A stretch of 64,000 bases of DNA from Geomonas sp. RF6 (GCF_021044625.1 NZ_CP087999.1:4113001-4177000); one strand, 5' to 3'. Shown: positions 15,089-53,415, counted from the first letter of the stretch. Numbers and translations: made by a program. Notes: generated from the letters alone by a model not told the origin.

Positions 15089-16795
15089 ATGCAGATAAGC
15101 AGACTGGGCGAGCTCCTGGTCGGACACAATATGATCACGAAGGATCAGCTGAAGCAGGCCCTCGCCGAGCAGAAGGCATCGGGGGGGCAGATGCGCCTCG
15201 GCTCCATCCTTATCCGGGACGGCCTCATCACCGAGGAGGAGCTCACCTCCTTCCTCTCGAAGCAGTACGGGGTCCCGACGGTGAACCTCACCGACCACGA
15301 GGTGGAGCCCGGCGTCATCAAGGTGATCCCCGCCGAGATCGCCCACAAGTACCAGATCGTGCCGGTGAACAGGGCGGGGTCGACCCTCATCATCGCCATG
15401 AGCGACCCCTCCAACATCTTCGCCATCGACGATATCAAGTTCATGACCGGGTACAACGTCGAGGTGGTGGTGGTGCCGGAGAGCGCCATCAAGAACGCCA
15501 TCGACAAGTTCTACGACCAGTCCGCATCGCTGGCGGACGTCATGGACAGCCTCGAGATGGAGGAGTTCGAGGTGGTGGGGGACGAGGAAGAGGTCGATCT
15601 CGGCTCCCTGGAGCGCGCCGTCGAGGACGCGCCGGTCGTGAAGCTTGTGAACCTCATCCTCACCGACGCCATCAAGAAAAAGGCGAGCGATATTCACATC
15701 GAGCCGTACGAGAAGAGCTTCCGGGTGCGCTACCGCATCGACGGCGTCCTCTACGAGGTCATGAAGCCGCCGATGAAGCTCAAAAACGCCATCACCTCCC
15801 GCATAAAGATCATGAGCGAGCTCGACATCGCCGAGCGGCGCCTTCCCCAGGACGGCAGGATAAAGATCAAGCTCGGCGGCGGGAAGGACATGGACTTCCG
15901 CGTCTCGGTGCTGCCGACCCTCTTCGGCGAGAAGATCGTTTTGCGACTCCTGGACAAGTCGAACCTGCAGCTCGACATGACGAAGCTCGGTTACGAGCCG
16001 GACGCGCTCGCCTCCTTCCAGAGGGAGATCCACAAGCCGTTCGGGATGGTGCTCGTCACCGGACCGACCGGCTCGGGAAAGACCGTCTCCCTCTACTCGG
16101 CCCTTGCGGAGCTGAACAAGGTCACGGAGAACATCTCCACCGCGGAGGACCCGGTGGAGTTCAACTTCGCAGGTATCAACCAGGTGCAGATGCACGAGGA
16201 CATAGGGCTCAACTTCGCCTCCGCGCTGCGCGCCTTCCTGCGCCAGGACCCTGACATCATCATGATCGGCGAGATCCGTGACTTCGAGACCGCGGAGATC
16301 GGGGTGAAGGCCGCACTAACCGGCCACCTCGTCCTCTCGACGCTGCACACAAACGACGCCCCCTCCACCATCAACCGTCTCCTGAACATGGGGATCGAGC
16401 CGTTCCTGGTGGCAAGCGCCGTGAACCTGATCACCGCCCAGCGCCTCGCGCGGCGCGTCTGTTCCGAGTGCAAGGAGCTGGACGAGATCCCGGTGCAGGC
16501 CCTCGTGGACGCAGGGGTCCCCGCGGCGGAAGCGGCCGACTTCGTCTGTTACAAAGGGCGCGGCTGTTCCGTGTGCAACGGCACCGGCTACAAGGGGCGC
16601 GTCGGCTTCTACCAGGTCATGCCGATGCTGGAGCCGATCCGGGAGCTCATCCTGAACGGCGCCAACACCGCCGAGATAAAGAGGGAGAGCATGCGCCTCG
16701 GCATAAAGACGATGCGCCAGTCCGGGCTTACGAAGTTAAAGGAGGGGGTCACCTCCTTCGAGGAAGTGCTGCGGGTCACCGTGGCTGACGACTGA
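15089..16795 (+). CDS. pilB: Type IV pilus assembly ATPase PilB
   Basis: Cytoplasmic hexameric ATPase that drives pilus extension. The 568-residue protein has the N-terminal T2SSE_N region (about 1-150), then the N2 and C-terminal RecA-like domain with Walker A GPTGSGKT (325-332), Asp box AEDPVE (352-357), Walker B IIMIGEIRD (390-398) and His box (TGHLVLSTLHTND, 411-423). A tetracysteine zinc site (C458, C461, C493, C496) separates it from PilT. First gene of the pil block, 15 bases before pilT. Confidence 0.97.
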   Translation: MQISRLGELLVGHNMITKDQLKQALAEQKASGGQMRLGSILIRDGLITEEELTSFLSKQYGVPTVNLTDHEVEPGVIKVIPAEIAHKYQIVPVNRAGSTLIIAMSDPSNIFAIDDIKFMTGYNVEVVVVPESAIKNAIDKFYDQSASLADVMDSLEMEEFEVVGDEEEVDLGSLERAVEDAPVVKLVNLILTDAIKKKASDIHIEPYEKSFRVRYRIDGVLYEVMKPPMKLKNAITSRIKIMSELDIAERRLPQDGRIKIKLGGGKDMDFRVSVLPTLFGEKIVLRLLDKSNLQLDMTKLGYEPDALASFQREIHKPFGMVLVTGPTGSGKTVSLYSALAELNKVTENISTAEDPVEFNFAGINQVQMHEDIGLNFASALRAFLRQDPDIIMIGEIRDFETAEIGVKAALTGHLVLSTLHTNDAPSTINRLLNMGIEPFLVASAVNLITAQRLARRVCSECKELDEIPVQALVDAGVPAAEAADFVCYKGRGCSVCNGTGYKGRVGFYQVMPMLEPIRELILNGANTAEIKRESMRLGIKTMRQSGLTKLKEGVTSFEEVLRVTVADD

Positions 16796-39715: not shown

Positions 39716-40672
39716 ATGCGTAATTTCTGCACCCTTTTCGACGCGAACTATCTCACCCGGGGGGTGCTGATGCACCGCTCCCTCATGGAGGCCGGCGAGC
39801 CGTTCACCCTCTACGTGGTCTGTTTCGACCCCCTCTCCCTGCAAGTGCTGCAGCGCCTCGCCCTGCCGCATCTGGTGCCGATTGCGCTGGAGGAGTTCGA
39901 ATCCCCCCCTTTGCGGGAGGTGAAGAAGAGCCGCTCCAGGGCAGAGTACTGCTGGACCTGCGCGAGCCACGTGATCCGCTATGTGCTGGAGCGCTTCCGG
40001 CTGGAGGAGGTGACCTATCTCGACGCCGATCTCTTCTTCTACCGCCCCCCCTCCTCGGTGCTGGCTGAATACGACGCAACGGAGGGATCGGTACTGTTGA
40101 CCGAGCACCGCTTCGCCCCGCTCTTTGAAAGCCACCTGGAGTACGGGCGCTACTGCGTGCAGTTCGTCACCTTCAGAAACGACCGCAGGGGGAGGGAGGC
40201 GCTCGACTGGTGGTGTGAGCGCACCCTCGAGTGGTGCCACGACAGGCTGGAGGACGGGCGCTTCGGCGACCAGAAGTACCTGGACGACTGGCTGGAGCGC
40301 TTTGAGGGGGTGCGGGTAAGCTCGCATATCGGAGCGGGGGTGGCGAACTGGAACGTGCGGCAGTACCGGGTTGCCGGCAGCAGCGAGGCGCCCACGGTGG
40401 ACGGGGTTCCGGTCCTCTTTTTCCACTTCCACATGGTGAAGTTATTCGTGAGCGGCAGGATCGACCTTGGGTACCTGCCGCTGCCACGCGAGGCGGTGGA
40501 GATCCTGTATCTCCCGTACTTGAGACGGCTGGCGACCGTGGAACGGGAAGTCGCGCTCCTGTGCCCCGGTTTCGCCACGGCTCTCATGCCGGACCGCCAT
40601 CCGCTGGCACGCGCCATCAGCTACCTGTACAGGAAAGCAAAGGGGAATTACCATGTCGTTCGAGTCGTATAA
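39716..40672 (+). CDS. GT-A type glycosyltransferase, paralogue 2
   Basis: Protein of 318 residues, paralogous to the gene at 35073 from FCTLFDANYLTRGVLMHRSL onward; shared features include VTYLDADLFFYRPPSSVLAE (DxD metal site), FGDQKYLDDWLERFEGV and PVLFFHFHMVKLF. I chose the ATG at 39716 since it gives the same N-terminus and nearly the same length as the paralogue; ATG codons at 39623 and 39656 and a GTG at 39617 (overlapping the preceding stop) have better ribosome binding sites, so an extension of up to 33 residues is possible. Overlaps the following epimerase by 20 bases. Confidence 0.78.
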   Translation: MRNFCTLFDANYLTRGVLMHRSLMEAGEPFTLYVVCFDPLSLQVLQRLALPHLVPIALEEFESPPLREVKKSRSRAEYCWTCASHVIRYVLERFRLEEVTYLDADLFFYRPPSSVLAEYDATEGSVLLTEHRFAPLFESHLEYGRYCVQFVTFRNDRRGREALDWWCERTLEWCHDRLEDGRFGDQKYLDDWLERFEGVRVSSHIGAGVANWNVRQYRVAGSSEAPTVDGVPVLFFHFHMVKLFVSGRIDLGYLPLPREAVEILYLPYLRRLATVEREVALLCPGFATALMPDRHPLARAISYLYRKAKGNYHVVRVV

Positions 40673-41639
40673 GGGAAAGAAGGTGCTGATCACCGGCGGT
40701 CTCGGTTTTATCGGGAGCTCTCTCGCGCTGCGCCTGGTAGGACTGGGGGCGCGGGTGACGGTCATCGACTCCCTTATTCCCCAGTACGGCGGGAACCTCT
40801 TCAACGTGGAGCCGGTGAAGGATCTCCTGAGGGTCAATATCTCCGACGTCCGGGATCGCAGCAGCATCAATTACCTCGTGCAGGGACAGGACTTCCTCTT
40901 CAACCTGGCGGGGACGCTGAGTCATATCGACTCCATGCGCGACCCGTTCACCGACCTGGAGATCAACTGCGTGAGCCAGTTGAGGATACTGGAGGCGTGC
41001 CGGGAGAACAATCCGGGGGTAAAGATCGTCTTCGCCGGCACCCGCGGTCAATTCGGCCGCGCCACCTACCTCCCGGTGGACGAGGAGCACCCCCTGCGCC
41101 CCACCGACGTGAACGGCATCAACAACATTGCGGGGGAGCAGTACCATCTCCTGTACAGCGAGGTGTACGGCATCAGGGCCTGTTCCCTGAGGCTCACCAA
41201 CACCTACGGCCCCAGGCACCAGATGAGGCACGCGCGGCAGGGGGTGCTGAACTGGTTCGTGCGCCAGGTGATCGAGGGAGAGAAGATCCGCATCTACGGC
41301 GACGGCTCCCAGATCCGCGACACGAACTACATAGAAGACGTGGTGGAGGCGCTCCTCCTCGCCATGATCACCCCCGAGACCGACGGCCAGGTGTACAACC
41401 TGGGGGGGGAGCCGCTCTCCCTGGTGAACTTCGTGGAACAGCTGATCACCCTGAACGGCTCCGGCGCCTACGAGCTGGTGGCATATCCCCAGGATCTGAA
41501 GCCGATCGAGATCGGCGACTACATCGCCTCCCACGACAAGTTTTCCCGCTGCACCGGATGGCACCCCCGGGTCCCCCTCGTGGACGGCCTGCAATGCACC
41601 CTCGATTACTACCGCAAGAACCGGCACGAGTACTGGTGA
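40653..41639 (+). CDS. Extended-SDR NAD-dependent sugar epimerase/dehydratase with unusual active site
   Basis: Protein of 328 residues of the GalE-like extended SDR fold. GGLGFIGSS (15-23) is the NAD loop and [15 protein letters not shown] the substrate region. The usual YxxxK catalytic pair is replaced: the segment that should hold it reads [14 protein letters not shown]. Related sequences that I recall carry NGINK here, so the Tyr is absent in the group and the Lys is additionally Asn in this copy. It could use another base or be a weakened or binding-only protein. It is followed directly by a decayed aminotransferase gene, suggesting it once formed a step in an amino-sugar pathway. Confidence 0.85.
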
Positions 41640-41646
41640 TGGAGGG

Positions 41647-41793
41647 CTGGCCGTGGTCGAGGACGTGGCCCAGGCCACCGGTTCCCGCTGGAACGGCAAA
41701 AGCTGCGGCACCATCGGCGATTACGGAGCCTTCAGCTTCTACCCGAGCAAGAACCTTGGCGTCTTTCCTAGCTCCATTCCCCTGAATTGTTGA
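41647..41793 (+). pseudogene. Remnant of a DegT/DnrJ/EryC1/StrS aminotransferase
   Basis: Between the epimerase stop and the nucleotidyltransferase start, frame 41647 reads [13 protein letters not shown], then [20 protein letters not shown], then an unrelated tail and TGA at 41791. This is the characteristic middle of PLP-dependent sugar aminotransferases: ED-AQ before the G-D-A/G-FSF-P-KN-G block whose Lys binds PLP. About 40 of an expected 370-400 residues remain, with no start codon and neither flank of the enzyme. It is a decayed fragment, probably left after a recombination that replaced neighbouring genes. The remainder of 41640-41853 holds only the ribosome binding site of the next gene. 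Confidence 0.85.
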
Positions 41794-41853: not shown

Positions 41854-43521
41854 GTGCAGATCGTCATTCCAATGTCAGGCTTCGGCGAGCGTTTTCGCCG
41901 CGCGGGGTACACCGAGCCGAAACCGCTTATAGAAATCGACGGGAAACCGATCATCGCGCACGTCGTGGAGATGTTCCCCGGCGAATCCGACTTCCTCTTC
42001 ATCTGCAACGAGGATCATCTCCGGCACCCCGACTACCGGATGGAGGAGACGCTCCGTCTCCATGCCCCCTCCGGACGCATTGCCGGCATCCCCCCCCACA
42101 AGCTCGGTCCGGTCCACGCAGTACGGCAGGTCGAGCACCTGATCGATCCCGATCGCCCCGTGCTGATAAACTACTGCGACTTTACCTGCTACTGGGACTG
42201 GGATCACTTCCGCTCCTTCGTCGCCCGGACCGCCTGTGCCGGGGCGATACCCGCCTACCGGGGCTTTCACCCTCATTCCCTCGGGAGTACCAACTACGCC
42301 TACCTGCGCGAAGAGGGGGGGTGGGTTTCCGACATCCGCGAAAAGGAGCCCTTTACCTGCGACCGCATGCAGGAGTTCGCCTCCAGCGGTACCTACTACT
42401 TTGCCTCGGGAAGGCTCATGAGCGACGCGCTGCGCGCCGCCGTGGAGCAGGGGTGGCAGGTAGGGGGGGAGTACTACGTGAGCCTCGCCTACAGGCATCT
42501 CTTCGCGCACGATCTTCCGGTGGCGGTGTACCCCCTGCAGCACTTCATGCAGTGGGGGACCCCGGAGGATGTCGCCGAATACCGGGGGTGGTCCGCGGCT
42601 TTCCGGGATTTGGCGGCGGAAAAGGTGCCGTCCCTGCCGGCAGGGACGCTGGTGGTTCCGATGGCGGGGCTGGGGGAGCGCTTTGCGCAGGAAGGGTACC
42701 CCGTTCCTAAGCCGCTCATCCCCGTTTCCGGTGAGCCGATGGTGGTGCAGGCCACCCGTGACCTCCCCGTCGCTGCAAACCACGTCTTCGTCGTGCGAAG
42801 CGACATGCCGGGGCACCGTGAGATCTCCCGCACGCTCGCCGACACCTATCCGGGCGCCGTCATAGAGACCCTCCCCGGCGTAACTGAAGGGCAGGCGTGC
42901 ACAGCTCTGGCCGGGCTCGAGGCGCTGGAGCGCGCGCTGGGGGAGGTGCCCGGTCCCGTCACCTTCGGCGCCTGCGACAACGGCGTCCTCTACGACCCGG
43001 AGCGTTTGAGGCGCCTCCTCGACGACCCCGAAACGGACGTCGTCGTCTGGGGCGCGCGTGGCCACGCAAACGCCGTGCGCCGCCCCGAGATGTTCGGCTG
43101 GATCGACGCCGAAAGAGGAGCGATTCGCGGGATCTCCGTGAAAAAGCCGCTCGGTGACCCCGCAACGGACCCCATCGTTATCGGCACCTTCACCTTCCGC
43201 AGCGCCGCGGATTTCCGCCGGGTGGTGCAGCGCCTGATGAGCCGGGAGGGCCGGGTGAACGGCGAGTTCTACCTCGACTCGTGCATCAACGACGCCCTCC
43301 AGCTCGGGTTGACCTGCCGTCTCTTCGAGGTGGACGGCTATCTGTCGTGGGGGACTCCGAACGACCTGAAAAGCTTCGAGTACTGGCAGTCCTGTTTCCA
43401 CAAGTGGTCCGGCCACAGCTACCTGATGGAGCTCGACGGACGCATCCCTCCGGAGGCGCTTTCCTCCCTTACGCTGCGCTATCAGGCCCTCGTCCCCGAA
43501 GTGCCGCTCCCGCGGATGTGA
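41854..43521 (+). CDS. Tandem nucleotidyltransferase: two NTP_transferase domains in one chain
   Basis: Protein of 555 residues made of two homologous sugar-phosphate nucleotidyltransferase-like domains. Domain 1 (about 1-245) begins IVIPMSGFGERFRRAGYTEP with K23 and has INYCDF (105-110) and QWGTPEDV (233-240). Domain 2 (about 264-520) begins LVVPMAGLGERFAQEGYPVP with K286 and has FGACDNGVLY (371-380) and SWGTPNDL (498-505). The G-x-G-x-R-F and PKPL motifs are intact in both, so each may bind nucleotide. The family usually has one such domain. It may activate one sugar or polyol phosphate twice, two different ones, or one domain may be regulatory. GTG start with AGAGGG upstream; GT2 and GDPD-like genes follow. 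Confidence 0.85.
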   Translation: MQIVIPMSGFGERFRRAGYTEPKPLIEIDGKPIIAHVVEMFPGESDFLFICNEDHLRHPDYRMEETLRLHAPSGRIAGIPPHKLGPVHAVRQVEHLIDPDRPVLINYCDFTCYWDWDHFRSFVARTACAGAIPAYRGFHPHSLGSTNYAYLREEGGWVSDIREKEPFTCDRMQEFASSGTYYFASGRLMSDALRAAVEQGWQVGGEYYVSLAYRHLFAHDLPVAVYPLQHFMQWGTPEDVAEYRGWSAAFRDLAAEKVPSLPAGTLVVPMAGLGERFAQEGYPVPKPLIPVSGEPMVVQATRDLPVAANHVFVVRSDMPGHREISRTLADTYPGAVIETLPGVTEGQACTALAGLEALERALGEVPGPVTFGACDNGVLYDPERLRRLLDDPETDVVVWGARGHANAVRRPEMFGWIDAERGAIRGISVKKPLGDPATDPIVIGTFTFRSAADFRRVVQRLMSREGRVNGEFYLDSCINDALQLGLTCRLFEVDGYLSWGTPNDLKSFEYWQSCFHKWSGHSYLMELDGRIPPEALSSLTLRYQALVPEVPLPRM

Positions 43522-43525
43522 CACC

Positions 43526-44224
43526 GTGCGGCTATCCCTGATCATCCCCTGTTATAACGAGGCCGCGAACCTCCCTCTCCTCCTTGAGCGCTGCGGCGAG
43601 GTGAGCCGCGTCCCCGGGGTGGAGGTCATCGTGGTGGACAACGGCTCCACCGACGAAAGCGCTGCCATCCTTCGGGACCTGCTCCCCCGTTACCCCGGCT
43701 GCCGCAGCGTCACGGTGGAGGTGAATCAGGGGTACGGCAAGGGGATACTCGCCGGGCTCGAGGATGCCAGAGGGGAGATCCTCGCCTGGACCCATGCCGA
43801 CCTGCAGACCGATCCTCTGGACGCGCTGCGCGGACTGGAGCTTTTCGACGGCGAGGCCCCGAACCTTCTGGTAAAGGGACGCCGCCACGGCCGCCCCTTG
43901 GGGGATACCTTCTTCACCGTCGGGATGAGCCTCTTCGAGACCGCCCTTCTGGGGAAGAGGATGTGGGACATCAATGCCCAGCCCACCATGTTCCCGCGCG
44001 CCTTCTTCCTCACTTGGCAGGAGCCGCCGCACGACTTCTCCCTCGATCTCTACGCCTACCACCAGGCGCTTTGCCAGCAAATGGCGGTGCGCCGTTTTCC
44101 GGTACGCTTCGGGGAGCGGGCCCACGGCGTCTCCCACTGGAACGTGAGCTGGAGCGCCAGGCGCAAATTCATCCGCAGGACAGTCTCTTTCAGCCTGCAG
44201 CTAAAAAAGAGGCTCAAACGATGA
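43526..44224 (+). CDS. GT2 glycosyltransferase (polyprenyl-phosphate sugar synthase-like)
   Basis: GT-A enzyme of 232 residues: LSLIIPCYNEAANLPLLLER, VVDNGSTDES, QGYGKGILAGLEDARGE and WTHADLQTDPLDAL. The N-Q-G-Y-G-K-G motif and the D-x-Q-x-D site are typical of DPM1/polyprenyl-phosphate glycosyltransferases, but the C-terminal membrane anchors are missing. It may load a sugar onto a lipid carrier for the membrane GT-C proteins encoded nearby. GTG start, four bases after the preceding gene; overlaps the next by ATGA. Confidence 0.87.
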   Translation: MRLSLIIPCYNEAANLPLLLERCGEVSRVPGVEVIVVDNGSTDESAAILRDLLPRYPGCRSVTVEVNQGYGKGILAGLEDARGEILAWTHADLQTDPLDALRGLELFDGEAPNLLVKGRRHGRPLGDTFFTVGMSLFETALLGKRMWDINAQPTMFPRAFFLTWQEPPHDFSLDLYAYHQALCQQMAVRRFPVRFGERAHGVSHWNVSWSARRKFIRRTVSFSLQLKKRLKR

Positions 44225-44820
44225 AAATTATCCGGCACCGTCTGAACACCATGGCAGAGCTGAAGGCGACCCCCGCCTGCTACGGCGTGGAGGTGGACAT
44301 CCGCAGCCGCGGGGACGAGCTCATCATCCACCACGACCCCTTCGCCTCCGGGGAGCCTTTCGAGGAGTGGCTCGGCGCCTACAGGCACGGGACCCTCATC
44401 CTCAACGTGAAGGAGGAAGGACTGGAAGGGCGCCTCCTCGAGCTCCTCGAGTCGCGCGGCATGGAGGACTACTTCCTTCTCGATCAGTCCTTCCCCTTCC
44501 TCCTGAAATGGGCCCCGGCGCTGAAGGGGCGCTGCGCGGTACGGGTGTCGGAGTTCGAATCGGTGGAAACCGCGCTCGCCCTGGCCGGCAAGGCACGCTG
44601 GGTCTGGGTCGACTGCTTCAGCACTTTTCCCCTCTCCGGTGCGGATGCCTGCCGGCTGAAGGATGCAGGGTTCCGGCTCTGTCTCGTCTCCCCCGAGCTC
44701 CAGGGGCGCGACCCCGACACCGAGGTACCCGAGCTGGTCCGGCTCCTGGGGAGGCGGGGGATCGAAGCGGACGCGGTGTGCACGAAGCGCCCCGATCTCT
44801 GGGAAAGGGTGGCGCAGTGA
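44221..44820 (+). CDS. Small GDPD/PI-PLC-like TIM-barrel protein
   Basis: Protein of 199 residues resembling a shortened glycerophosphodiester phosphodiesterase barrel: H6-R7 (IIRHRLN), then GVEVDIRSRGDELIIHHDP with E24, D26 and H38 in the spacing of the GDPD metal/catalytic residues, and LILNVKEEGLE for the next strand. There is no signal peptide, so it should act in the cytoplasm, unlike most glycerol-phosphodiesterases that degrade lipids outside. Linked by ATGA overlap to a GT2 gene and next to a kinase fusion, it may cleave or form a phosphodiester intermediate of the glycan pathway. Function is inferred by fold only. Confidence 0.7.
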   Translation: MKIIRHRLNTMAELKATPACYGVEVDIRSRGDELIIHHDPFASGEPFEEWLGAYRHGTLILNVKEEGLEGRLLELLESRGMEDYFLLDQSFPFLLKWAPALKGRCAVRVSEFESVETALALAGKARWVWVDCFSTFPLSGADACRLKDAGFRLCLVSPELQGRDPDTEVPELVRLLGRRGIEADAVCTKRPDLWERVAQ

Positions 44821-44821
44821 C

Positions 44822-46867
44822 GTGAAGAAGCTGCCGCTGCATCTCCTTTTTCTGCTCGGTCTGGCGATCCGCCTCGCCCTCATCTTTACCAGCGTCTCCT
44901 CGGCCGTAACAGACTGGTTCGTCCCCTTTCTCGACGCCACGACGGAGCGCTTCACGCTGGACCCGTGGTCCCTCTGGATGCACGGCGGGGGGACGGGGCT
45001 CGCCTTCCCCTACGGCTACGCCATGTGGTTTCTTTTCCTGCCGCTGACCGTTGCGGCAAAGGTCCTCGGGATCCCCCTGCAGTACGCCTACGGCTTCACG
45101 CTCCTTGCCGGCGACTGCGCCCTCCTGTCCGTGCTGCGCCGCCTGCTCCCCGGGCGGGACCGGCTGCTCCTCGGGGCCTACTGGCTCTCCCCCATCGTGA
45201 TCCTCGCAAGCTACGGGCTCGGATTCAACGACGTGCTCCCGGCGCTCCTTCTGGTCCTCGCGCTGTACTTCACCCGAGAGCTCCGCCTGCAAAGCGCGGG
45301 GGCCGCCTGCATCGCCGCCGTTTCCGCAAAGCTGAGCATGGCGCTGGCGGTCCCTTTCTTCGTCATCTATCTGTACAACAACCGGGCGCTGAGGCAGCTG
45401 TTGCCGCGCTTTGTCAGGGGGGCGCTCCTCGCCGCGGCGGTGCTCGTCCTCCCTTTTCTCTTTTCCGACAGCGGGTGGCGGATGGTCTTTGGCAACCGGG
45501 AGATCGGCAGGGTCTACAGCCTGGCCCTCGATGTCGGCGCGGACACCCGCATCTACCTCGTTCCCCTGATCTACCTGGTGATGCTGTACCTTGTCTGGCG
45601 GGTACGACGCCTCAACTACGAGCTTTTTCACGCCACCCTCGGCATGGTATTTCTCCTGGTGGTCCTCATGACCCCGGCGGCACCGGGGTGGTTCATCTGG
45701 GCGCTGCCGTGGCTCGTATCGTACCAGGCGATGAGCGGGACGACGGGGATAGCCCTGGCGGGAGTCTTTTCCGGGCTCTATCTGCTGAGCACCCTCCTTA
45801 CCACCCCCTTGCATCTCATGGGGTGGGGGACGCTCGACCTGCTGGGCGCTTTCCGACTGAGCGCGGGGGAGGGGAGTCATGCCGCCTCCCTTCTGCACAC
45901 CGTCATGGTGGCGAGCGGCGTCATCCTGACCCTGCGCATCTGGCGTGAAGGGGTCACCCGCAACGACTACTTCAGGCTGAGCCGCAAGCCGTTTGTCGTC
46001 GGGGTGGCCGGCGACTCAGGGGCCGGGAAGGATACCTTTTGCGACGCGCTCGCCGCCCTTTTCGGCAGTCACTCCGTCGCCACCGTCTCCGGGGACGATT
46101 ATCACCTGTGGGACAGGCAGAAGCCGATGTGGCAGGTCATGACCCATCTGAATCCGAAGGCGAACGACCTGGAGGGGTTTGTGAATGCGGTGGTGGCCCT
46201 CACCGACGGCAGGAGCATTCAGTCCCGGCACTACGACCACGGCTCCGGCAAGATGAGCAGGCCCTTCACGGTAAAAAGCAACGACTTCATCATCGCCAGC
46301 GGCCTGCACGCCCTCTACCTGCCGATGCTGCGCGACCGCTACGACCTGAGCATCTTTCTCGACATCGACGAGGGACTGCGCCGTCACTTCAAGGTGGTGC
46401 GCGACGTCGAGCAAAGGGGGCACAGCACCGCCGCTGTCCTCCAGTCGTTCGAGCGCAGGGAGCCGGATGCGGCGCGCTTCATCCGCCCCCAGGCGGAGCA
46501 CGCCGACCTGATACTCTCTCTCCAGCCGGCCCATGAGGGGCTCCTGGAGCACCCCGGCGAAAAGCCCCTCACTTTCAAGCTCGTGGCGCGCTCGCGTCTG
46601 GGGATGGACGATCTGCTTCTGAGAAGGGTGCTGGTTGGGGTCTGCGGGCTCCACGTGGAAATCGCGGAGGGGGAGGGGGGCGTAGCTGTCCTTTCCGTCC
46701 AGGATGACGCCTCCTCGGAGGATATCGCCCTGGCTGCCCGCCTGCTTTGCCCCTCGATCCTCGAGTTCCTGGACATAGAGCCGGGATGGGAGGGGGGCGC
46801 ACTCGGTCTCATGCAGCTGGTCACCCTCACCCACATAAACCAGGCACTGACCAGGAGGTTCGTCTAG
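44822..46867 (+). CDS. Fusion of a GT-C membrane protein and a phosphoribulokinase/uridine-kinase domain
   Basis: Protein of 681 residues from a GTG start. Residues 1-370 form about ten transmembrane helices of GT-C type (DWFVPFLDATTERFTLDPW loop after helix 1, FNDVLPALLLVLALYF, TPAAPGWFIWALPW). Residues 390-600 are a P-loop kinase of the PRK/uridine-kinase family: Walker A GDSGAGKDT (397-405), SGDDYHLWDR (423-432), THLNPKANDL (441-450) and the HYDHGSG (470-476) motif of that family; the last 80 residues are unassigned. The join is in frame with no stop or repeat. A cytoplasmic kinase tethered to a membrane sugar transferase suggests coupled phosphorylation and transfer. I know no characterised protein with this architecture. 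Next gene overlaps by one base. Confidence 0.85.
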   Translation: MKKLPLHLLFLLGLAIRLALIFTSVSSAVTDWFVPFLDATTERFTLDPWSLWMHGGGTGLAFPYGYAMWFLFLPLTVAAKVLGIPLQYAYGFTLLAGDCALLSVLRRLLPGRDRLLLGAYWLSPIVILASYGLGFNDVLPALLLVLALYFTRELRLQSAGAACIAAVSAKLSMALAVPFFVIYLYNNRALRQLLPRFVRGALLAAAVLVLPFLFSDSGWRMVFGNREIGRVYSLALDVGADTRIYLVPLIYLVMLYLVWRVRRLNYELFHATLGMVFLLVVLMTPAAPGWFIWALPWLVSYQAMSGTTGIALAGVFSGLYLLSTLLTTPLHLMGWGTLDLLGAFRLSAGEGSHAASLLHTVMVASGVILTLRIWREGVTRNDYFRLSRKPFVVGVAGDSGAGKDTFCDALAALFGSHSVATVSGDDYHLWDRQKPMWQVMTHLNPKANDLEGFVNAVVALTDGRSIQSRHYDHGSGKMSRPFTVKSNDFIIASGLHALYLPMLRDRYDLSIFLDIDEGLRRHFKVVRDVEQRGHSTAAVLQSFERREPDAARFIRPQAEHADLILSLQPAHEGLLEHPGEKPLTFKLVARSRLGMDDLLLRRVLVGVCGLHVEIAEGEGGVAVLSVQDDASSEDIALAARLLCPSILEFLDIEPGWEGGALGLMQLVTLTHINQALTRRFV

Positions 46868-47616
46868 TGAAAATCCTCAATCCCGGCCGCCTCACCCGTC
46901 TCCCCGACGCCATCATCTTCGACACGGACAACACGCTCTACCCGTACGACCCCGCTCATGCGGCGGCGCAGCAGGCGCTGAAGGAAAAGGTGGTGCGCAC
47001 CTTCTCCATCGGGGAGGCGCAGTTCGACCGGGCATTCAGCGAGGCGCGCCAGCAGGTGAAGGCGGGACTGAAGAACACTGCATCCTCGCACAGCCGCCTC
47101 CTCTACGTGCAGCGCATGCTGGAGATCATGGGGCTCGGCTCGCAGGTGCTCCATGCCCTCGACTTCGAGCAGACGTACTGGCGGAGCTTTCTGAACCACG
47201 CCGTCCTTTTTCCTGAGGTGCGGGAGTTACTCGACGACATCCGGCTGCTGGGGATCCCCACCGCCATCGTCACCGATCTCACCGCCCAGATTCAGTTCCG
47301 CAAGGTGGTCTACTTTGGCCTCGATCATCATTTCGACTACATCGTCACCAGTGAGGAGGCGGGATACGACAAGCCGCACGAGGCGCCTTTCCGGCTGGCC
47401 CTGCAGAAGATCCGCCCGAAGGGGGAGTGCATCTGGATGATCGGCGACAACCCGGTGAACGACATCCGCGGCGGCCGTGAGCACATCAATGCGGTGACCC
47501 TGCAAAAACTCCATCCCGGAGCTGAACTGGGGAGAGGTGAAGACGCGCCTGATGCCGCTTTCGAGGAGTTTGCCGCGCTGAGGCGTCTCGTCGCCCGTCT
47601 GCAGGACGCACGGTGA
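46867..47616 (+). CDS. HAD-family hydrolase
   Basis: Cytoplasmic phosphatase-like protein of 249 residues with motif I FDTDNTLYPYD (D19, D21), a helical cap, motif II in TAIVTDLTA, the lysine KPHEAPF and motif IV MIGDNPVNDIRGGRE. All HAD catalytic residues seem present. GTG start overlapping the preceding stop (TAGTG) and GTGA overlap with the aldolase gene imply it acts in the same pathway, perhaps removing phosphate from the aldol product. Confidence 0.85.
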   Translation: MKILNPGRLTRLPDAIIFDTDNTLYPYDPAHAAAQQALKEKVVRTFSIGEAQFDRAFSEARQQVKAGLKNTASSHSRLLYVQRMLEIMGLGSQVLHALDFEQTYWRSFLNHAVLFPEVRELLDDIRLLGIPTAIVTDLTAQIQFRKVVYFGLDHHFDYIVTSEEAGYDKPHEAPFRLALQKIRPKGECIWMIGDNPVNDIRGGREHINAVTLQKLHPGAELGRGEDAPDAAFEEFAALRRLVARLQDAR

Positions 47617-48665
47617 AGGGGGATGCCGTGAGGGAATCGATCGTCCGCTACTGCTCGCGACTCGGGGGGGATCCTCTGCTCGTGCAGGGCGCCGGGGGGA
47701 ACGTCTCCTGGAAGGAAGGCGACACCCTGTGGGTGAAGGCTTCCGGTACCTGGCTGGCGCATGCCGGGCAGGAAGAGATCTTCGTGCCGGTAGACCTCGT
47801 GCATCTGCGGGGAGCATTGAGCCTCGGCGATTTCTCGGTGCGCCCCAGGGTGCGCGGGGAATCCTCCCTGAGGCCATCGATCGAGACGCTACTGCACGCC
47901 CTGATGCCGCAGCGCGTGGTCGTGCATCTGCACCCTGTGGAAGTCGTGGCCCGTCTTGTGCGCAGCACCTGCGGCGCTGAACTCGAGGACCTTTTCGGCT
48001 CTTCCCTTCCCTGGACACTCGTGGGGTACCACAAACCGGGAGCCGCGCTGGCTGCGGCGGTACGCGCTGCGCTTGTCGAAGTCCCGGGGGCAGCGGTGGT
48101 ATTTCTGAGGAATCACGGTCTGGTGGTCGGTGGAAAGGATGTGGAAGAGGTCGATGCTCTCCTGGAGGTGATTATCTCCACGGTGACCGGTACCTGCGCC
48201 GCTCTTGCCGGTGCGGCACACGGAGATACGGAAGGTAAAATGCCGGAGCCGCTGCTGGCGCCGGACGGCAGGTGCTACCTTCCTGTCGACGGCGCCGGGA
48301 TCCAGAACCTGTCACATCCCCTTTTCTTTGACCGGCTGGAGCGCGACTGGGCGCTCTGCCCCGACCATGTGGTTTTTCTTGGAGGGCGTCCCGCCTGCTA
48401 CCCGTCGCTCGATGACGTCCTTGAAGACATCGAGAGGGGAAATGACTCCGAACTCTTCTTTGTGAAAGGGGAGGGGGTCTACTCGGCGCCCACTCTGAGC
48501 GCGGCGCAGCGGGTTCAGCTCCAGTGCTTTTACGATGTGCTGGCGCGCCAGTCACCCGATTCCCCTCTGCACACGCTCGACTGCTACCAGGTTGCGGAGC
48601 TGCTCGCGTGGGATGCAGAGCGTTACAGGCAGCAGCTTGCCAGGGGGGAAGGGGGCACGGTGTGA
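47613..48665 (+). CDS. Class II aldolase/adducin-family protein with C-terminal extension
   Basis: Protein of 350 residues. The N-terminal class II aldolase domain (about 1-215) has VQGAGGNVSWK, E91, the zinc histidines H105 and H107 (VVHLHPVEV) and H168 (RNHGLVV), as in fuculose/rhamnulose-phosphate aldolases. The C-terminal part (about 235-345, with CPDHVVFLGG and FFVKGEGVY) resembles the middle portion of RhaD-like bifunctional proteins, so it is longer than the 215-residue simple aldolases. It may form a C-C bond between dihydroxyacetone phosphate and an aldehyde, or act as a lyase. Coupled to the HAD gene. Confidence 0.83.
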   Translation: MKGDAVRESIVRYCSRLGGDPLLVQGAGGNVSWKEGDTLWVKASGTWLAHAGQEEIFVPVDLVHLRGALSLGDFSVRPRVRGESSLRPSIETLLHALMPQRVVVHLHPVEVVARLVRSTCGAELEDLFGSSLPWTLVGYHKPGAALAAAVRAALVEVPGAAVVFLRNHGLVVGGKDVEEVDALLEVIISTVTGTCAALAGAAHGDTEGKMPEPLLAPDGRCYLPVDGAGIQNLSHPLFFDRLERDWALCPDHVVFLGGRPACYPSLDDVLEDIERGNDSELFFVKGEGVYSAPTLSAAQRVQLQCFYDVLARQSPDSPLHTLDCYQVAELLAWDAERYRQQLARGEGGTV

Positions 48666-48682: not shown

Positions 48683-50428
48683 ATGACAAACCTGTCCCTC
48701 TCCAGAAAAGATACCGTCTGGCTCCTTCTTGTGGCGACGCTGGTCCTCTTCTACCTCGTCGTGGCGGGGGCGGCCAATGCCGATCTGACGGTGGGGCGCT
48801 TCGCGCTCTTCATGGACGAGCGGATCACCTTCGACGGCGTCAAGAATATCCTGCATCCCGCCGGCTGGTCCCATTTCCTCTGGAGCATCGCCGACGGCGG
48901 CGACCATCGTTACGGGCGGTCGCTGTGGAACTCCATGGCGCTCTTCTGCGCGTTGCCGGAGTACTTCTTCGGGGAGCCGGGGCAGATCTTCGCAGGGAGA
49001 ATGAGCGGCGTCGTCATCCTTCTTTCCGCCTTCCTCGTCCTCACCTTCACCTTTGTGAAGCGGTGGTATCTGCGTTTTCTGCTCATGGCATCCCTTCTGG
49101 CGATGCCGTATGCCGATTACTACATGAGCATGCCGAAACCGGAGCCACTCCAGATGCTTTTCATCGCCATCTTCCTGTACTTCTTCAGGAAGGAGGAGAT
49201 GAGCTTCAGGGGGAGCTACTGGATATTTCTCGGCCTCGCTTTCGGCACGAAGATCTCCGCCCTGCCGTTGGTCGGGGTCTTCGGGGCGGCCGCCATCATC
49301 AAGGGCTTCTCCCGGCGCGGTCTGGATCAATCTGTCTGTGAGCTCCTGCGTGCGGCGGGCTTTTTCCTTGCCGGGCTTGCCCTCGCTGTCCCCATTTTGC
49401 TAAAACCGGTGGCGATCTCCCTGCTCCTTTTCTGCCTCTTTGACACGCTTGTTACCAGGAAGCTCCGCATCCCCCAATCTGCTGCCAACGTCACCATGGC
49501 CGCCCTCCTCATCGCCGGCAACGGTCTCGCCGCATGGTGGTCCATCTACCTGGGGGAGGGGTCGGGCCTGGCGGTTTGGGTAGGGAACACCTTCCTGAAC
49601 ACCGGTCATGGCAGTGACCTCCGCAGCATCGGCTTTGGGAGCTGGGTCGACTTCTTCGTCCACGACTGGATGGTCGCGCCGGCTGCGCTCACCGCGCTTC
49701 TCCTGGCGATCGTCCTGGCGCTCCTTGCTTGCTTCGGTATAAGGCAGGTGCAAAAGAGTGGGGTGCCGGAAGGGGCGGCTGACGCGGTTCCCGCCCTCGT
49801 TTTGCTGAGCGGTCTCGCGCTGGTGCTCGCTATTTTCAGCGGGGTGCACCGGCTTTGGGGGTTTTACCTTTTTCCCGGCACCATATTGGCGCTCGTCGGC
49901 CTCTTCGGCCTGGTGGAGATACACCTCCCGGAAAAGGGATGCTGTCCCGGGAGGGAGGACCGCAGCGCAGGGAGATATCTTTCTCTTTCCGCACTGGCAC
50001 TGGTTGCCGTCATCACCGTCTGCTGGTGGTTTCCGCTCAGCATCCAGAAGTACCGGCAGCTGGCCAGACGGACCGCCGCTCCCCAGTACCGGGACGATTA
50101 CCTGTCGTATCTGAAGCTCACAGATTTTTTGGCTGGTTACGCGGACGGGAAAAAGGGGGCGGTGTCCGTTTCCTTTGACCCGTCCCTGTTCATTCCTGTA
50201 AGCTGCCCGAAATACAAGATTACGGAGTTCTGGGGGGAGGGGCCTCACTGGGGGGAGGGGGTGGACGTCGTTGTGGTCGCCAAAGACAACGCACCTTGCA
50301 GCGTGGTTCCGAATGGCTCCCCCGGGTCTGCGCCCACCCTCGCGGAGGGCTCAGAGTATGACAAACGGTACGAGCGCCGACTGAGATTGCCAAATGGCGG
50401 CGAGGTTTTCGTGGCACGAGGCGAATGA
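48683..50428 (+). CDS. Large GT-C-like integral membrane protein
   Basis: Membrane protein of 581 residues with about eleven helices, unrecognised at the level of a named family. The loop after helix 1 has ALFMDERITFDGVKNILHP, an acidic D-E-R motif typical of ArnT/PMT-type GT-C enzymes; later parts include FAGRMSGVVILLSAFLVL and a C-terminal periplasmic tail (from about 515). It might add a sugar or other group to a lipid-linked acceptor or exported protein. GGGAG precedes the ATG. It begins 17 bases after the aldolase gene. Confidence 0.7.
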   Translation: MTNLSLSRKDTVWLLLVATLVLFYLVVAGAANADLTVGRFALFMDERITFDGVKNILHPAGWSHFLWSIADGGDHRYGRSLWNSMALFCALPEYFFGEPGQIFAGRMSGVVILLSAFLVLTFTFVKRWYLRFLLMASLLAMPYADYYMSMPKPEPLQMLFIAIFLYFFRKEEMSFRGSYWIFLGLAFGTKISALPLVGVFGAAAIIKGFSRRGLDQSVCELLRAAGFFLAGLALAVPILLKPVAISLLLFCLFDTLVTRKLRIPQSAANVTMAALLIAGNGLAAWWSIYLGEGSGLAVWVGNTFLNTGHGSDLRSIGFGSWVDFFVHDWMVAPAALTALLLAIVLALLACFGIRQVQKSGVPEGAADAVPALVLLSGLALVLAIFSGVHRLWGFYLFPGTILALVGLFGLVEIHLPEKGCCPGREDRSAGRYLSLSALALVAVITVCWWFPLSIQKYRQLARRTAAPQYRDDYLSYLKLTDFLAGYADGKKGAVSVSFDPSLFIPVSCPKYKITEFWGEGPHWGEGVDVVVVAKDNAPCSVVPNGSPGSAPTLAEGSEYDKRYERRLRLPNGGEVFVARGE

Positions 50429-50521
50429 TCAAAGGATGCTGCGGTCGGCTGATGCGATGCAGGGGCGTCTTGAAGCACGACAAGGGTGCGTAGCGGTGGC
50501 GGGGGAGGGGTACTGGCGGGG

Positions 50522-51634
50522 ATGAAGATCAAGCTTATCAAGCTGGTGGACAGAGTGGCAGGGAAGGGGGCTACCATGTGCCTCCCTCCTCCGGCACAGC
50601 GGCCGGTACCTTCTCCACGCTCCATCCTGGTCATCCGCCCCGGCGGGATCGGGGACGCTGTGCTCCTCCTCCCCGCACTGAGGGCGCTGCAGCGCGCTTT
50701 TCCTGCCTGTCGCATAGATGTCCTTGCCGAGAGACGCAATGCCGGTGCTTTCCGTTTCATCTCCGGCCTCGGCTCGGTTCGCTGCTACGATTCGGCGCGG
50801 GGGCTCGGCGAGGTGCTGCGCTGTCGCTACGACGTGGTGATCGATACCGAGCAGTGGTATCACCTCTCCGCCGTGGTGGCGAGGCTGACCCGCGCGCCGG
50901 TCCTCATCGGCTTTGGCACCAACGAGAGGCGGCGGCTCTTTACTCATTCGGTGCCGTATCCGCGGGAATTCTACGAAGCCGACGCCTTCTTCAGGCTGCT
51001 TGAGCCGCTCGGCATCACGGCGCCGCCCCTGATCGAGACCCCCTTCGTGGAGCTTTCCGACTCCGACCGGCAGGAGGGGGCGCGCCTCCTGGCGCAACTG
51101 GGAGACAGGCGCTACATCACGCTCTTCCCCGGTGCCAGCGCCCCCGAGAAGCTCTGGAATGGTGAACGGTTCCGGGAGGTGGTCTCGCTGCTGAACCGGA
51201 GGGGGGTCGCGGTGGTGCTGCTCGGCGGGAAGGACACCGTGGCGGCAGCGGAGGCGGTCGCGCGGGGAACCGGGGCGCTCAACCTGGCGGGAGCGACCTC
51301 TCTCGCCGTCAGTGCCGCGGTCATAGAAGGAGGGGAGGGGCTGATCAGCGGCGACTCCGGGCTCCTGCACATCGCGGCAGGACTCGGCAAGCCGACCGCT
51401 GCCCTCTTCGGCCCGAGCGATCCGCGCAAGTGGGCGCCGCGCGGCGAGTCGCACATCGTGGTGGCGAAGGATCTTCAGTGCGCCCCCTGCTCCTCCTTCG
51501 GCACGATCCCACGCTGCACGGCGAAGGAAAAATGCATGGAGCAGATCTCGGTGGGGGATTTCCTGGAACGGATGGCGGGGCATCCTCTGTGGGGTGCGGC
51601 GCTCGGCACAAGACGTGACAGCGGCGAAGAATGA
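50522..51634 (+). CDS. GT9-family glycosyltransferase (heptosyltransferase-like)
   Basis: Soluble GT-B enzyme of 370 residues resembling LPS heptosyltransferases: ILVIRPGGIGDAVLLLPALR near 35-55, DVVIDTEQWYHLSA, TLFPGASAPEKLWNGERFRE and the C-terminal donor-site GDSGLLHIAAGLGKPTAALFG. Four cysteines near the C-terminus (CAPC, CTAKEKC) may bind zinc, as in related GT9 proteins. The ATG at 50522 is used. It is the last plus-strand gene before the minus-strand DUF6056 gene, which converges on it across 33 bases. Confidence 0.88.
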   Translation: MKIKLIKLVDRVAGKGATMCLPPPAQRPVPSPRSILVIRPGGIGDAVLLLPALRALQRAFPACRIDVLAERRNAGAFRFISGLGSVRCYDSARGLGEVLRCRYDVVIDTEQWYHLSAVVARLTRAPVLIGFGTNERRRLFTHSVPYPREFYEADAFFRLLEPLGITAPPLIETPFVELSDSDRQEGARLLAQLGDRRYITLFPGASAPEKLWNGERFREVVSLLNRRGVAVVLLGGKDTVAAAEAVARGTGALNLAGATSLAVSAAVIEGGEGLISGDSGLLHIAAGLGKPTAALFGPSDPRKWAPRGESHIVVAKDLQCAPCSSFGTIPRCTAKEKCMEQISVGDFLERMAGHPLWGAALGTRRDSGEE

Positions 51635-51667: not shown

Positions 51668-53101
51668 TCACAGGGAGGCGCGCACCGTGTGCCGGGACTT
51701 GAGGACGACGCTCTTTTTTCCAAAGCAGGCGGCATAGTACTTGTTGACCCAGTATTTGCCGTCAAGGCTAACGAAGTAGAAATAGAGGCTCCCGGGGGTG
51801 GCTGTGAGCGGCTCCACGATGATGGTCTCTTCGTGCGACGTCATCACCTGGAGTTCTCTGCGCTGCAGCTCTTCGTGGTACCGGGAGGAGTTGCCGCTCA
51901 GCACGTCGTTCGCTACCAGGGCGAAGTTGGAGGTTTGCAGGGGGATCAGGGGGATAATAAGCGCTGAGGCAACAAGGCCCGATCCCTTGAACGTAACCCG
52001 CCTCATGAGGGCTACGACCTTCTCGCCGAAATGCGCGGAAAATAGTGCCACGTTCAGCAGCCAGCCGATGAGGAAGAAGAGGTAAATCATGTTGATGACC
52101 CTGTTCTGCGGCGGCGCCCCGGTACTGTGATACGGGATGAAAAAGGCTGCGAAGAGGAGCACAGAGAGGGAAAGTGCCGATCCGGCGATCCTGAAGGAGC
52201 GGAAGGTCTGCCGCAGCGCCGGGTGCCCGGTGACTGCGCTGAAGACCATGTACATGAGGATCAGGGTGACAGGTGCGGTCGCCCAGGTCTGGAGCAGTGG
52301 CAAGGCGTAGCGCAACGTTTCCACAGCGGTGACCAGTACCGGTTTGTGCTGCGTATATTGACCGAGTCTGACGAAGTTGCCGGGGGCCATTAGCGCCAGA
52401 TAGTTCCCGCCGGCCACAACGGCGACGGTGACAACCTGAAAGCGGTCGATAGCCTTGGTGGCGGCATGAGCATGGTAAAGTGCGAGCGCCGTCGCCAGCA
52501 GCGTCACTACGGCGACGATCTCGTTCGTTCCGCAAAGGAGGAGGCCGAGGATCGGCGTCAGGAATTTGAGGAGGAGATTGTCGTCCCTGCGACCCTGGAC
52601 GATGTGGACAAGAGCCGCAAGGTAAAGGATGAGGAGCGACTCCGCTACCTGGTATGTCACCACTCCTGCCATCCAATAGAGGCCCGACCTGATGTCGTCC
52701 ATCTGGTCGAGAAAGGCAAAGGCCAGGGCGAGCGTGAAGATGAGCCGTTGCTGCCGGGAGAGGGCCCTCGCGGTCACTTCGGCAACCAGAAGGTACAGGG
52801 CGGCGATCTGTGCTGCGGCAACGATCGCCAGGGAGAGCTTGTAGCCGGTGATGGAGTTGAATACCAGAGGGTTCAGGCTAAGGAGCGCGCTCGATGTGAA
52901 GCGTCCGGTCCATGTCGTGTACCAGTGATGCTGCGCCTCCAGAAACCCCTTTTCCATCGATATGGCGGAGTAGGCGAAATCGTCCGTCTGGGGATGGACG
53001 AAGTAAAAGTTGACCAGGAACGGGGAGATCGCCAGCAAAAGCACGACCACCATCAGGTGCAGCTTTGCCCTGGACGGGAGTGTGGAGGCTGTAGGTAGCA
53101 T
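51668..53101 (-). CDS. DUF6056-like integral membrane protein
   Basis: Membrane protein of 477 residues with about ten to eleven helices, the only minus-strand gene in the glycan island. The loop after helix 1 (FYFVHPQTDDFAYSAISMEK) has the D-D acidic motif and HWYTTWTGRFTSSALLSLNP follows, the pattern of the DUF6056/GtrB-region GT-C-like family. The ATG at 53101 has GAGGGGA upstream, starting just before the first helix; the frame stays open to 53185. It has its own sigma-70-like promoter and is less GC-rich than its neighbours, suggesting separate acquisition. No function is known. Confidence 0.75.
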   Translation of the reverse strand: MLPTASTLPSRAKLHLMVVVLLLAISPFLVNFYFVHPQTDDFAYSAISMEKGFLEAQHHWYTTWTGRFTSSALLSLNPLVFNSITGYKLSLAIVAAAQIAALYLLVAEVTARALSRQQRLIFTLALAFAFLDQMDDIRSGLYWMAGVVTYQVAESLLILYLAALVHIVQGRRDDNLLLKFLTPILGLLLCGTNEIVAVVTLLATALALYHAHAATKAIDRFQVVTVAVVAGGNYLALMAPGNFVRLGQYTQHKPVLVTAVETLRYALPLLQTWATAPVTLILMYMVFSAVTGHPALRQTFRSFRIAGSALSLSVLLFAAFFIPYHSTGAPPQNRVINMIYLFFLIGWLLNVALFSAHFGEKVVALMRRVTFKGSGLVASALIIPLIPLQTSNFALVANDVLSGNSSRYHEELQRRELQVMTSHEETIIVEPLTATPGSLYFYFVSLDGKYWVNKYYAACFGKKSVVLKSRHTVRASL

Positions 53102-53415
53102 TTTTTTAGATTCCCCTCTGTTCAACCGGCAGATTCTCCCTCTCAGGAAGAGCGGGAAGACAAGGAGCCCAGTTATTACAGTCATTCGGCATATCTGTCA
53201 ATGTGATACGCCAATTGTCGTTTCACGCGATGCCGGTGCCCTGGCCTTAAAGTTCAGGGGCGGGCGTTTCCCCGGAGAGTCTCCTCCCGCAGCGGAACGG
53301 CCGCCGGTTCATCACTGACCAGTTTCCGCTTTTTAAGGAGAGCTCTTTGTGGTAGCTTTACCCGCCGGAGAGACGTCTCCCCAGATGGTTTCCCGAAAGG
53401 AGTATTCGCTTTCAG
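53102..53415. other. 314-base divergent intergenic region
   Basis: This gap lies between the minus-strand membrane protein and the plus-strand epimerase. It holds the minus-strand promoter (53173-53201), a GAGACGTCTC palindrome (53370-53379), an ops-like GTGGTAGCTTT (53349-53359) and the epimerase ribosome binding site (AAAGGAG). No coding frame with recognisable homology is visible on either strand. Confidence 0.6.
53173..53201 (-). promoter_or_regulatory. Sigma-70-like promoter of the DUF6056 gene
   Basis: On the minus strand TTGACA (53201-53196), 17 bases, then TAATAA (53178-53173), about 70 bases before the ATG at 53101. The -35 is consensus; the -10 matches partially. A dedicated promoter fits this gene being an independent insert in the island. 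Confidence 0.6.

Follow-up and report, generated by a model that had tools for sequence, protein, structure and literature searches.

A mobile gene cassette in Geomonas and other bacteria that may modify surface glycans with a donor pathway of its own

The closest described relatives of the locus considered here are the gtr (GtrA-GtrB-GtrC) cassettes with which serotype-converting phages glucosylate the O antigen, where a GT2 enzyme provides a polyprenyl-phosphate sugar and a GT-C transferase passes it on. The ArnC/ArnT and DPM synthase/PIG-M systems likewise combine GT2 and GT-C folds, loading the lipid inside and transferring the sugar outside. A third point of reference is the non-carboxylating pentose bisphosphate pathway of haloarchaea, in which a phosphatase converts ribulose 1,5-bisphosphate (RuBP) to ribulose 1-phosphate, and a FucA-type aldolase then yields dihydroxyacetone phosphate (DHAP) and glycolaldehyde (PMC9700705). 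Here we analyze a cassette of six open reading frames (ORFs) that lie head to tail on the plus strand at 41854–48665 of a 64-kb window, meaning the whole stretch of DNA analyzed (4113001–4177000 of the 5.26-Mb single-contig genome of Geomonas sp. RF6). We put the probability at roughly 0.55 that this cassette is a mobile, gtr-type unit for surface-glycan modification that carries its own donor pathway.

The six genes encode, from 5′ to 3′, a twin nucleotidyltransferase, a GT2 glycosyltransferase, a short GDPD-like protein, a fusion of a GT-C membrane domain with a phosphoribulokinase (PRK)-like kinase, a HAD phosphatase, and a class II aldolase-family protein. They are separated by +4, −4, +1, −1, and −4 bases; three of the five junctions overlap, and the remaining two are almost contiguous. 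Alignments of relatives show catalytic residues intact in all of the cassette enzyme families. This anatomy bears out an earlier, sequence-only reading of the same DNA, whose genes and family assignments agree with our Pfam and fold results. That reading listed the six genes correctly and overlooked two further components, a seventh, polytopic gene at 48683–50428 and the GtrA gene found in most other genomes, as well as the mobility of the cassette.

The cassette genes co-occur far above chance. An alignment of the GDPD-like protein was scanned against 84,980 species genomes, and the best 80 of 324 relatives were retained; the window, plasmid, and genome loci with sufficient flanking DNA were pooled into a sample of 62. 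The GDPD-like, GT-C, kinase, and HAD genes are present in all 62 loci, with the kinase fused to the GT-C domain in every case. The twin nucleotidyltransferase is found in 59 loci, the aldolase in 58, GT2 in 57, and GtrA in 47. The order NTa-NTb-GtrA-GT2-GDPD-GTC-K-HAD-ALD (NTa and NTb being the two nucleotidyltransferase domains, GTC-K the fusion, and ALD the aldolase) occurs in 31 of the 62, and most of the others differ only in having the aldolase first or in lacking GtrA. Because these loci had been picked through the GDPD-like gene, a second sample free of that selection was taken, comprising 395 genomes of the phylum. The full-length GT-C/kinase fusion, a close GDPD-like gene, and the full-length twin nucleotidyltransferase occur there in exactly the same five genomes. 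A close aldolase accompanies them in four, nothing better than E = 2e-13 being found elsewhere in the sample; in the fifth, the cassette sits at a contig end. Thus, the two samples rule out a chance neighborhood. The sequence-only reading had named absence of co-conservation beforehand as the outcome that would overturn its proposal; the families prove clearly coupled.

This strict coupling goes together with patchy presence, which is the pattern of a horizontally moving functional unit. The cassette occurs in only 2 of 48 genomes of the window's family, and its families are coupled across Desulfobacterota and the Alpha-, Beta-, and Gammaproteobacteria, with more matches in contigs labeled otherwise. 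The full set, including GtrA, is found on two Escherichia coli IncR-type plasmid records, and in the annotated plasmid it is flanked by two copies of IS26. The cassette also occurs on Azospirillum brasilense p5 and Hirschia baltica pHbal01. In a 71-kb IMG/VR contig, its neighbors are a CI-type repressor gene on one side and a tail-fiber and an acyltransferase gene on the other; elsewhere the contig encodes terminase, portal, tape measure, baseplate, tail sheath, and integrase. With its two baseplate-hub genes, the contig may represent a pair of prophages, in which case the cassette could be inside one or between them; the INPHARED phage records contain no match to the GDPD-like protein. The cassette is horizontally mobile, as seen from plasmid and prophage-contig carriage among relatives and not at the window copy, beside which no mobile element was seen. 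The 324 relatives found in sequenced genomes, of which the best 80 were retained, and this carriage make the cassette a widespread, apparently unrecognized way of changing the bacterial surface. In the E. coli plasmid, a frameshifted gene for an AIDA-repeat autotransporter (15293–16556; loci L029 and L133) adjoins the cassette within the IS26-bounded segment.

The membrane arm of the cassette places it beside the gtr systems. Its GT2 enzyme (43526–44224, plus strand; Glycos_transf_2, 4.9e-23) has 232 amino acids and consists of the catalytic domain only, the nearest solved structures being ArnC and DPM synthase. The fusion gene (44822–46867, plus strand) joins a membrane half of predicted GT-C fold to a Pfam PRK domain. 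The modeled membrane half (44822–45961; AlphaFold2 pLDDT 93.5) finds GPI-mannosyltransferase I, ALG6, ArnT, and PimE in Foldseek searches, all of which use polyprenyl-phosphate sugars. By predicted fold it is therefore a GT-C transferase of the kind that gtr systems contain, nearest to enzymes using dolichyl-phosphate mannose (Dol-P-Man), dolichyl-phosphate glucose (Dol-P-Glc), and undecaprenyl-phosphate 4-amino-4-deoxyarabinose (Und-P-Ara4N). Lipid loading by GT2 and membrane transfer by GT-C, both of which had been proposed from the sequence, are thus backed by family and by the nearness of the GT-C fold to Dol-P-Man, Dol-P-Glc, ArnT, and PimE enzymes. The polytopic gene at 48683–50428 (plus strand) starts 17 bases past the aldolase, has no Pfam match, and probably encodes a variable acceptor-side transferase, a GtrC-like partner. 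In 62 of 88 loci, a polytopic ORF longer than 400 amino acids, related weakly or not at all, is encoded within 2.5 kb on the same strand.

Taken together, GT2, GT-C, a variable second polytopic protein, and the GtrA of most loci point to a gtr-like system. The association of gtr systems with phage and mobile DNA also appears among the relatives, in the prophage-like contig and the IS26-flanked IncR plasmid, so that carriage on phage-like and plasmid DNA is a further likeness. Unlike the gtr cassettes, this one brings its own sugar pathway (twin nucleotidyltransferase, GDPD-like protein, kinase, HAD, and aldolase), and its short GT2 appears to lack the C-terminal transmembrane segments of GtrB. 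It shares with ArnC/ArnT and DPM synthase/PIG-M the two folds and the logic of inside loading and outside transfer, and differs from them in its likely sugar and in the fusion of GT-C to a kinase. By its logic, then, the cassette belongs beside the gtr cassettes, with part of the gtr definition missing in this genome and a whole sugar pathway added. In Roseomonas and Pseudoroseomonas (four loci), where no GT2 gene lies between the nucleotidyltransferase and GDPD-like genes, lipid loading may depend on a different enzyme.

Three enzymes bear on the sugar that is made. The kinase domain (45962–46867; Pfam PRK, 1.7e-36) matches phosphoribulokinases of the PDB at 2.6e-39, with the motifs DDYHxxDR, YxHxxG, GLH, RDxxxRGHS, and PQ aligned. 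Public records label it a uridine kinase, a label ruled out by motifs and by score, which is far better for PRK (1.1e-38 versus 1.1e-17). Against the curated PRK model it reaches 194.6 bits where the cut-off is 236, and its ribulose 5-phosphate (Ru5P)-site motifs are conserved. Compared with class II phosphoribulokinases, it shares the P-loop and Ru5P-site motifs over about 200 aligned residues; it differs in standing behind a GT-C membrane domain, in scoring under the family cut-off, and in belonging to a host without RuBisCO. A Calvin-cycle role for the kinase is excluded, since no RuBisCO was found in the genome. The HAD phosphatase (46867–47616, plus strand; Pfam HAD) conserves DxDxT, K, and D, and its best NCBIfam model is RuBP 5-phosphatase (NF053830, 8e-50), at 169.6 bits against a cut-off of 330. 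The same model ranks first, under its cut-off, for the HADs of all six loci tested, the window and five others. The aldolase (47613–48665, plus strand; Aldolase_II, 4.3e-18), of the ketose-1-phosphate type, has the zinc triad HxH...H and catalytic glutamate of class II enzymes, at least 97% of 70 aligned sequences having E91, H105, H107, and H168. Among named models the nearest are RhaD and aldolase/SDR fusions, with the best resemblance to the aldolase half of RhaD/YuxG-type aldolase/dehydrogenases.

The resemblance of the kinase to PRK and of the HAD to RuBP phosphatase would also suit a pentose-bisphosphate shunt as in haloarchaea (Ru5P to RuBP to ribulose 1-phosphate to DHAP and glycolaldehyde) that lies beside glycan genes by accident. 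The two systems do have in common an RuBP-phosphatase-like HAD and a class II ketose-1-phosphate aldolase-family protein. However, the haloarchaeal pathway (PMC9700705) employs an R1P kinase and an R15P isomerase in place of a PRK-like kinase, and the cassette has no glycolaldehyde reductase, scores under the family cut-offs, and sits in a glycan locus. Its aldolase is distant from ribulose 1-phosphate aldolase (NF053831, 25.1 bits against a cut-off of 300). Moreover, the enzymes travel with GT2, GDPD-like, and nucleotidyltransferase genes, the kinase is fused to GT-C in all 62 loci, and the genes ride on plasmids and a prophage-like contig. We regard such a shunt as very unlikely.

Ketose phosphates are the best-supported substrate class, because the kinase and the HAD have RuBP enzymes as their closest counterparts and the aldolase has ketose 1-phosphate aldolases. 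We favor, on this family evidence, a ketopentose 1-phosphate route. The PRK-like kinase would convert a ketopentose 5-phosphate such as Ru5P to a 1,5-bisphosphate, from which the HAD would give a ketopentose 1-phosphate with a free C5 hydroxyl. Such a move of the phosphate from C5 to C1 would free the C5 hydroxyl and permit a furanose ring, which offers one chemical reason for a paired kinase and phosphatase. The aldolase may make, break, or epimerize the ketose 1-phosphate by DHAP-plus-glycolaldehyde chemistry, and the GDPD-like enzyme may rearrange or trim the phosphate ester through attack by a neighboring hydroxyl. The twin nucleotidyltransferase would then activate the product, and GT2 would transfer the sugar to undecaprenyl phosphate. 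Passage of the lipid-linked sugar across the membrane would fall to GtrA in the loci that have it and otherwise to another protein, and the GT-C domain with its variable partner (48683–50428) would attach the sugar outside to a polysaccharide or glycoprotein. The nucleotidyltransferase gene (41854–43521, plus strand) encodes two Pfam NTP_transferase stretches in one polypeptide. Its N-terminal domain (41854–42603; NTP_transf_3, 1.8e-13 over residues 7–143) has GxGxRF..PKPL and NYCDF motifs that are kept in 72 relatives; in the C-terminal domain (42637–43443), a second NTP_transf_3 stretch, AGxGxRF..KP and CD motifs are conserved.

A more specific and quite speculative extension is that the cassette contains a dedicated route, the first of its kind, to an activated ketofuranose of the ribulose or xylulose type. 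After the shift of phosphate from C5 to C1 by kinase and HAD, the GDPD-like enzyme would make and open a cyclic 1,2-phosphate and so bring the phosphate to the anomeric C2, and the resulting ketosyl 2-phosphate would be activated by the nucleotidyltransferase and loaded by GT2 onto undecaprenyl phosphate. The sequence-only reading had proposed a pathway to an unusual glycan unit: its gene-set coupling, lipid loading, and membrane transfer hold up, and its chemistry stays conjectural. Its family-level kinase and HAD assignments likewise stand; it had passed over their kinship to PRK and RuBP phosphatase, which narrows the likely substrate.

The GDPD-like protein (44221–44820, plus strand) is the most conserved member of the cassette. 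It has no Pfam match, and a PDB sequence search with its profile returned no hit. The AlphaFold2 model (pLDDT 94.5), a short TIM barrel, finds GDPDs in Foldseek, which places the protein in the GDPD fold. Canonical GDPDs use HR, ExD, HD, and ExK as catalytic and metal residues. The cassette protein conserves H6, R7, E24, D26, H38, N62, and K64 and thus keeps HR, ExD, HD, and the lysine, the glutamate of ExK, the third metal ligand, being replaced by an invariant N62. Its N-x-K signature is shared by distant relatives in Scandinavium, Azospirillum lipoferum, Rhizobium, Sinorhizobium, Ruegeria, a Pseudomonas aeruginosa plasmid, and three genomes of the phylum, those on plasmids having 27–36% identity. 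These relatives sit next to nucleotidyltransferase domains, in most cases a pair that may be fused or separate, and often with other polysaccharide genes. Their usual companion is a β-phosphoglucomutase-like or other HAD, some loci also having a cupin or WavE; the stretches examined around them contain no PRK-like kinase or aldolase. There is thus a recurring core of GDPD-like protein, nucleotidyltransferase pair, and HAD, to which the window set adds the PRK-like kinase, the aldolase, and the polyprenyl-phosphate transfer arm. The cassette thereby marks out a subfamily of the GDPD fold that goes with nucleotidyltransferase pairs.

That other loci pair GDPD-like genes with two nucleotidyltransferases and a HAD, and lack kinase and aldolase, lends something to a different product: a nucleotide-activated polyol or glycerol phosphate of the CDP-polyol type that becomes a phosphodiester substituent. 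The GDPD-like protein would then recycle or supply a glycerophosphate-like piece, and kinase and HAD would adjust the phosphorylation of the polyol precursor. The GDPD fold and a weak similarity of the nucleotidyltransferase to IspD fit this idea, yet the set has no reductase or CDP-glycerol-type transferase, the GDPD metal ligand is altered, and GT2, GtrA, and GT-C indicate a polyprenyl-phosphate sugar. We hold it to be unlikely.

Several points weigh against the reading that we prefer, a gtr-type unit with its own sugar donor. None of the HAD, kinase, and aldolase reaches the curated cut-off of its named family, and the kinase could use a different sugar phosphate. The sugar pathway is a prediction from genes and folds, and its GDPD step is a guess. 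GtrA, present in 47 of the 62 related loci, occurs neither in the window nor anywhere else in this genome, which leaves a defining part of gtr systems missing; another protein would perform the flipping step here, or the step is dispensable. GT2 is absent from the locus in a few relatives. Finally, no chromosomal copy was detectable among the 5,426 genomes searched, which might include E. coli strains with xylulose O antigens such as O95.

The missed cut-offs, together with the presence of epimerases and dehydratases in the class II aldolase superfamily, could instead mean that the cassette makes an ordinary nucleotide sugar by divergent enzymes. The aldolase and kinase would have drifted, for example to an epimerase and a hexose kinase, and the end product would be a known hexose or heptose. 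However, the PRK and aldolase active-site residues are conserved, and so dedicated a mobile set would be unnecessary for an ordinary sugar. This explanation, too, appears rather improbable.

Since no chromosome in that search carries a detectable copy, the cassette is probably not the route to the xylulose of E. coli O antigens; a link to them is unsupported, the cassette being on two plasmids and no chromosome. The related Scandinavium GDPD/HAD module likewise has no E. coli match. Two further candidates gained no support. The capsule gene table for the fructose branches of Campylobacter jejuni HS1 lists no GDPD, PRK, or aldolase gene (PMC7901785). The L-xylulose branch of Yersinia enterocolitica O:10 is described in a paper whose text does not mention an aldolase (PMC11380512). 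Open-access reports on activated ketoses and xylulose glycans give structures and no pathway of this type. Likewise, no description of this combination of gene families was found in the open-access literature, subscription papers lying outside our coverage. The cassette provides a genetic entry point to the possible activation of rare ketose-derived sugars, for which we found no open-access explanation.

In this genome the cassette lies in a polysaccharide locus, with pilus genes on one side and tRNA-synthetase genes on the other. The pilB, pilT, pilC, pilS, and pilR genes are at 15–22 kb of the window, a Wzt-type exporter gene at 33–34 kb, and the genes for threonyl-tRNA synthetase and IF-3 at 58–61 kb, so the glycan locus near pilus genes that was proposed from the sequence is indeed there. 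We assume that the region resembles the xap polysaccharide region adjoining pilA of Geobacter sulfurreducens, which would tie the cassette to the extracellular matrix. Immediately upstream of the cassette, at 41636–41790, a third-frame translation looks by eye like what is left of a DegT/DnrJ-type sugar aminotransferase and may mark the boundary of an insertion or a recombination event. Before it, at 40653–41639, is an NAD-dependent epimerase gene whose best model, under its cut-off, is dTDP-glucose 4,6-dehydratase; a very similar epimerase family is found near the cassette in 14 related loci. On the far side, a GT9 heptosyltransferase-like gene (50486–51634) is followed by a gene for a DUF6056 polytopic protein on the opposite strand (51668–53185, minus strand).

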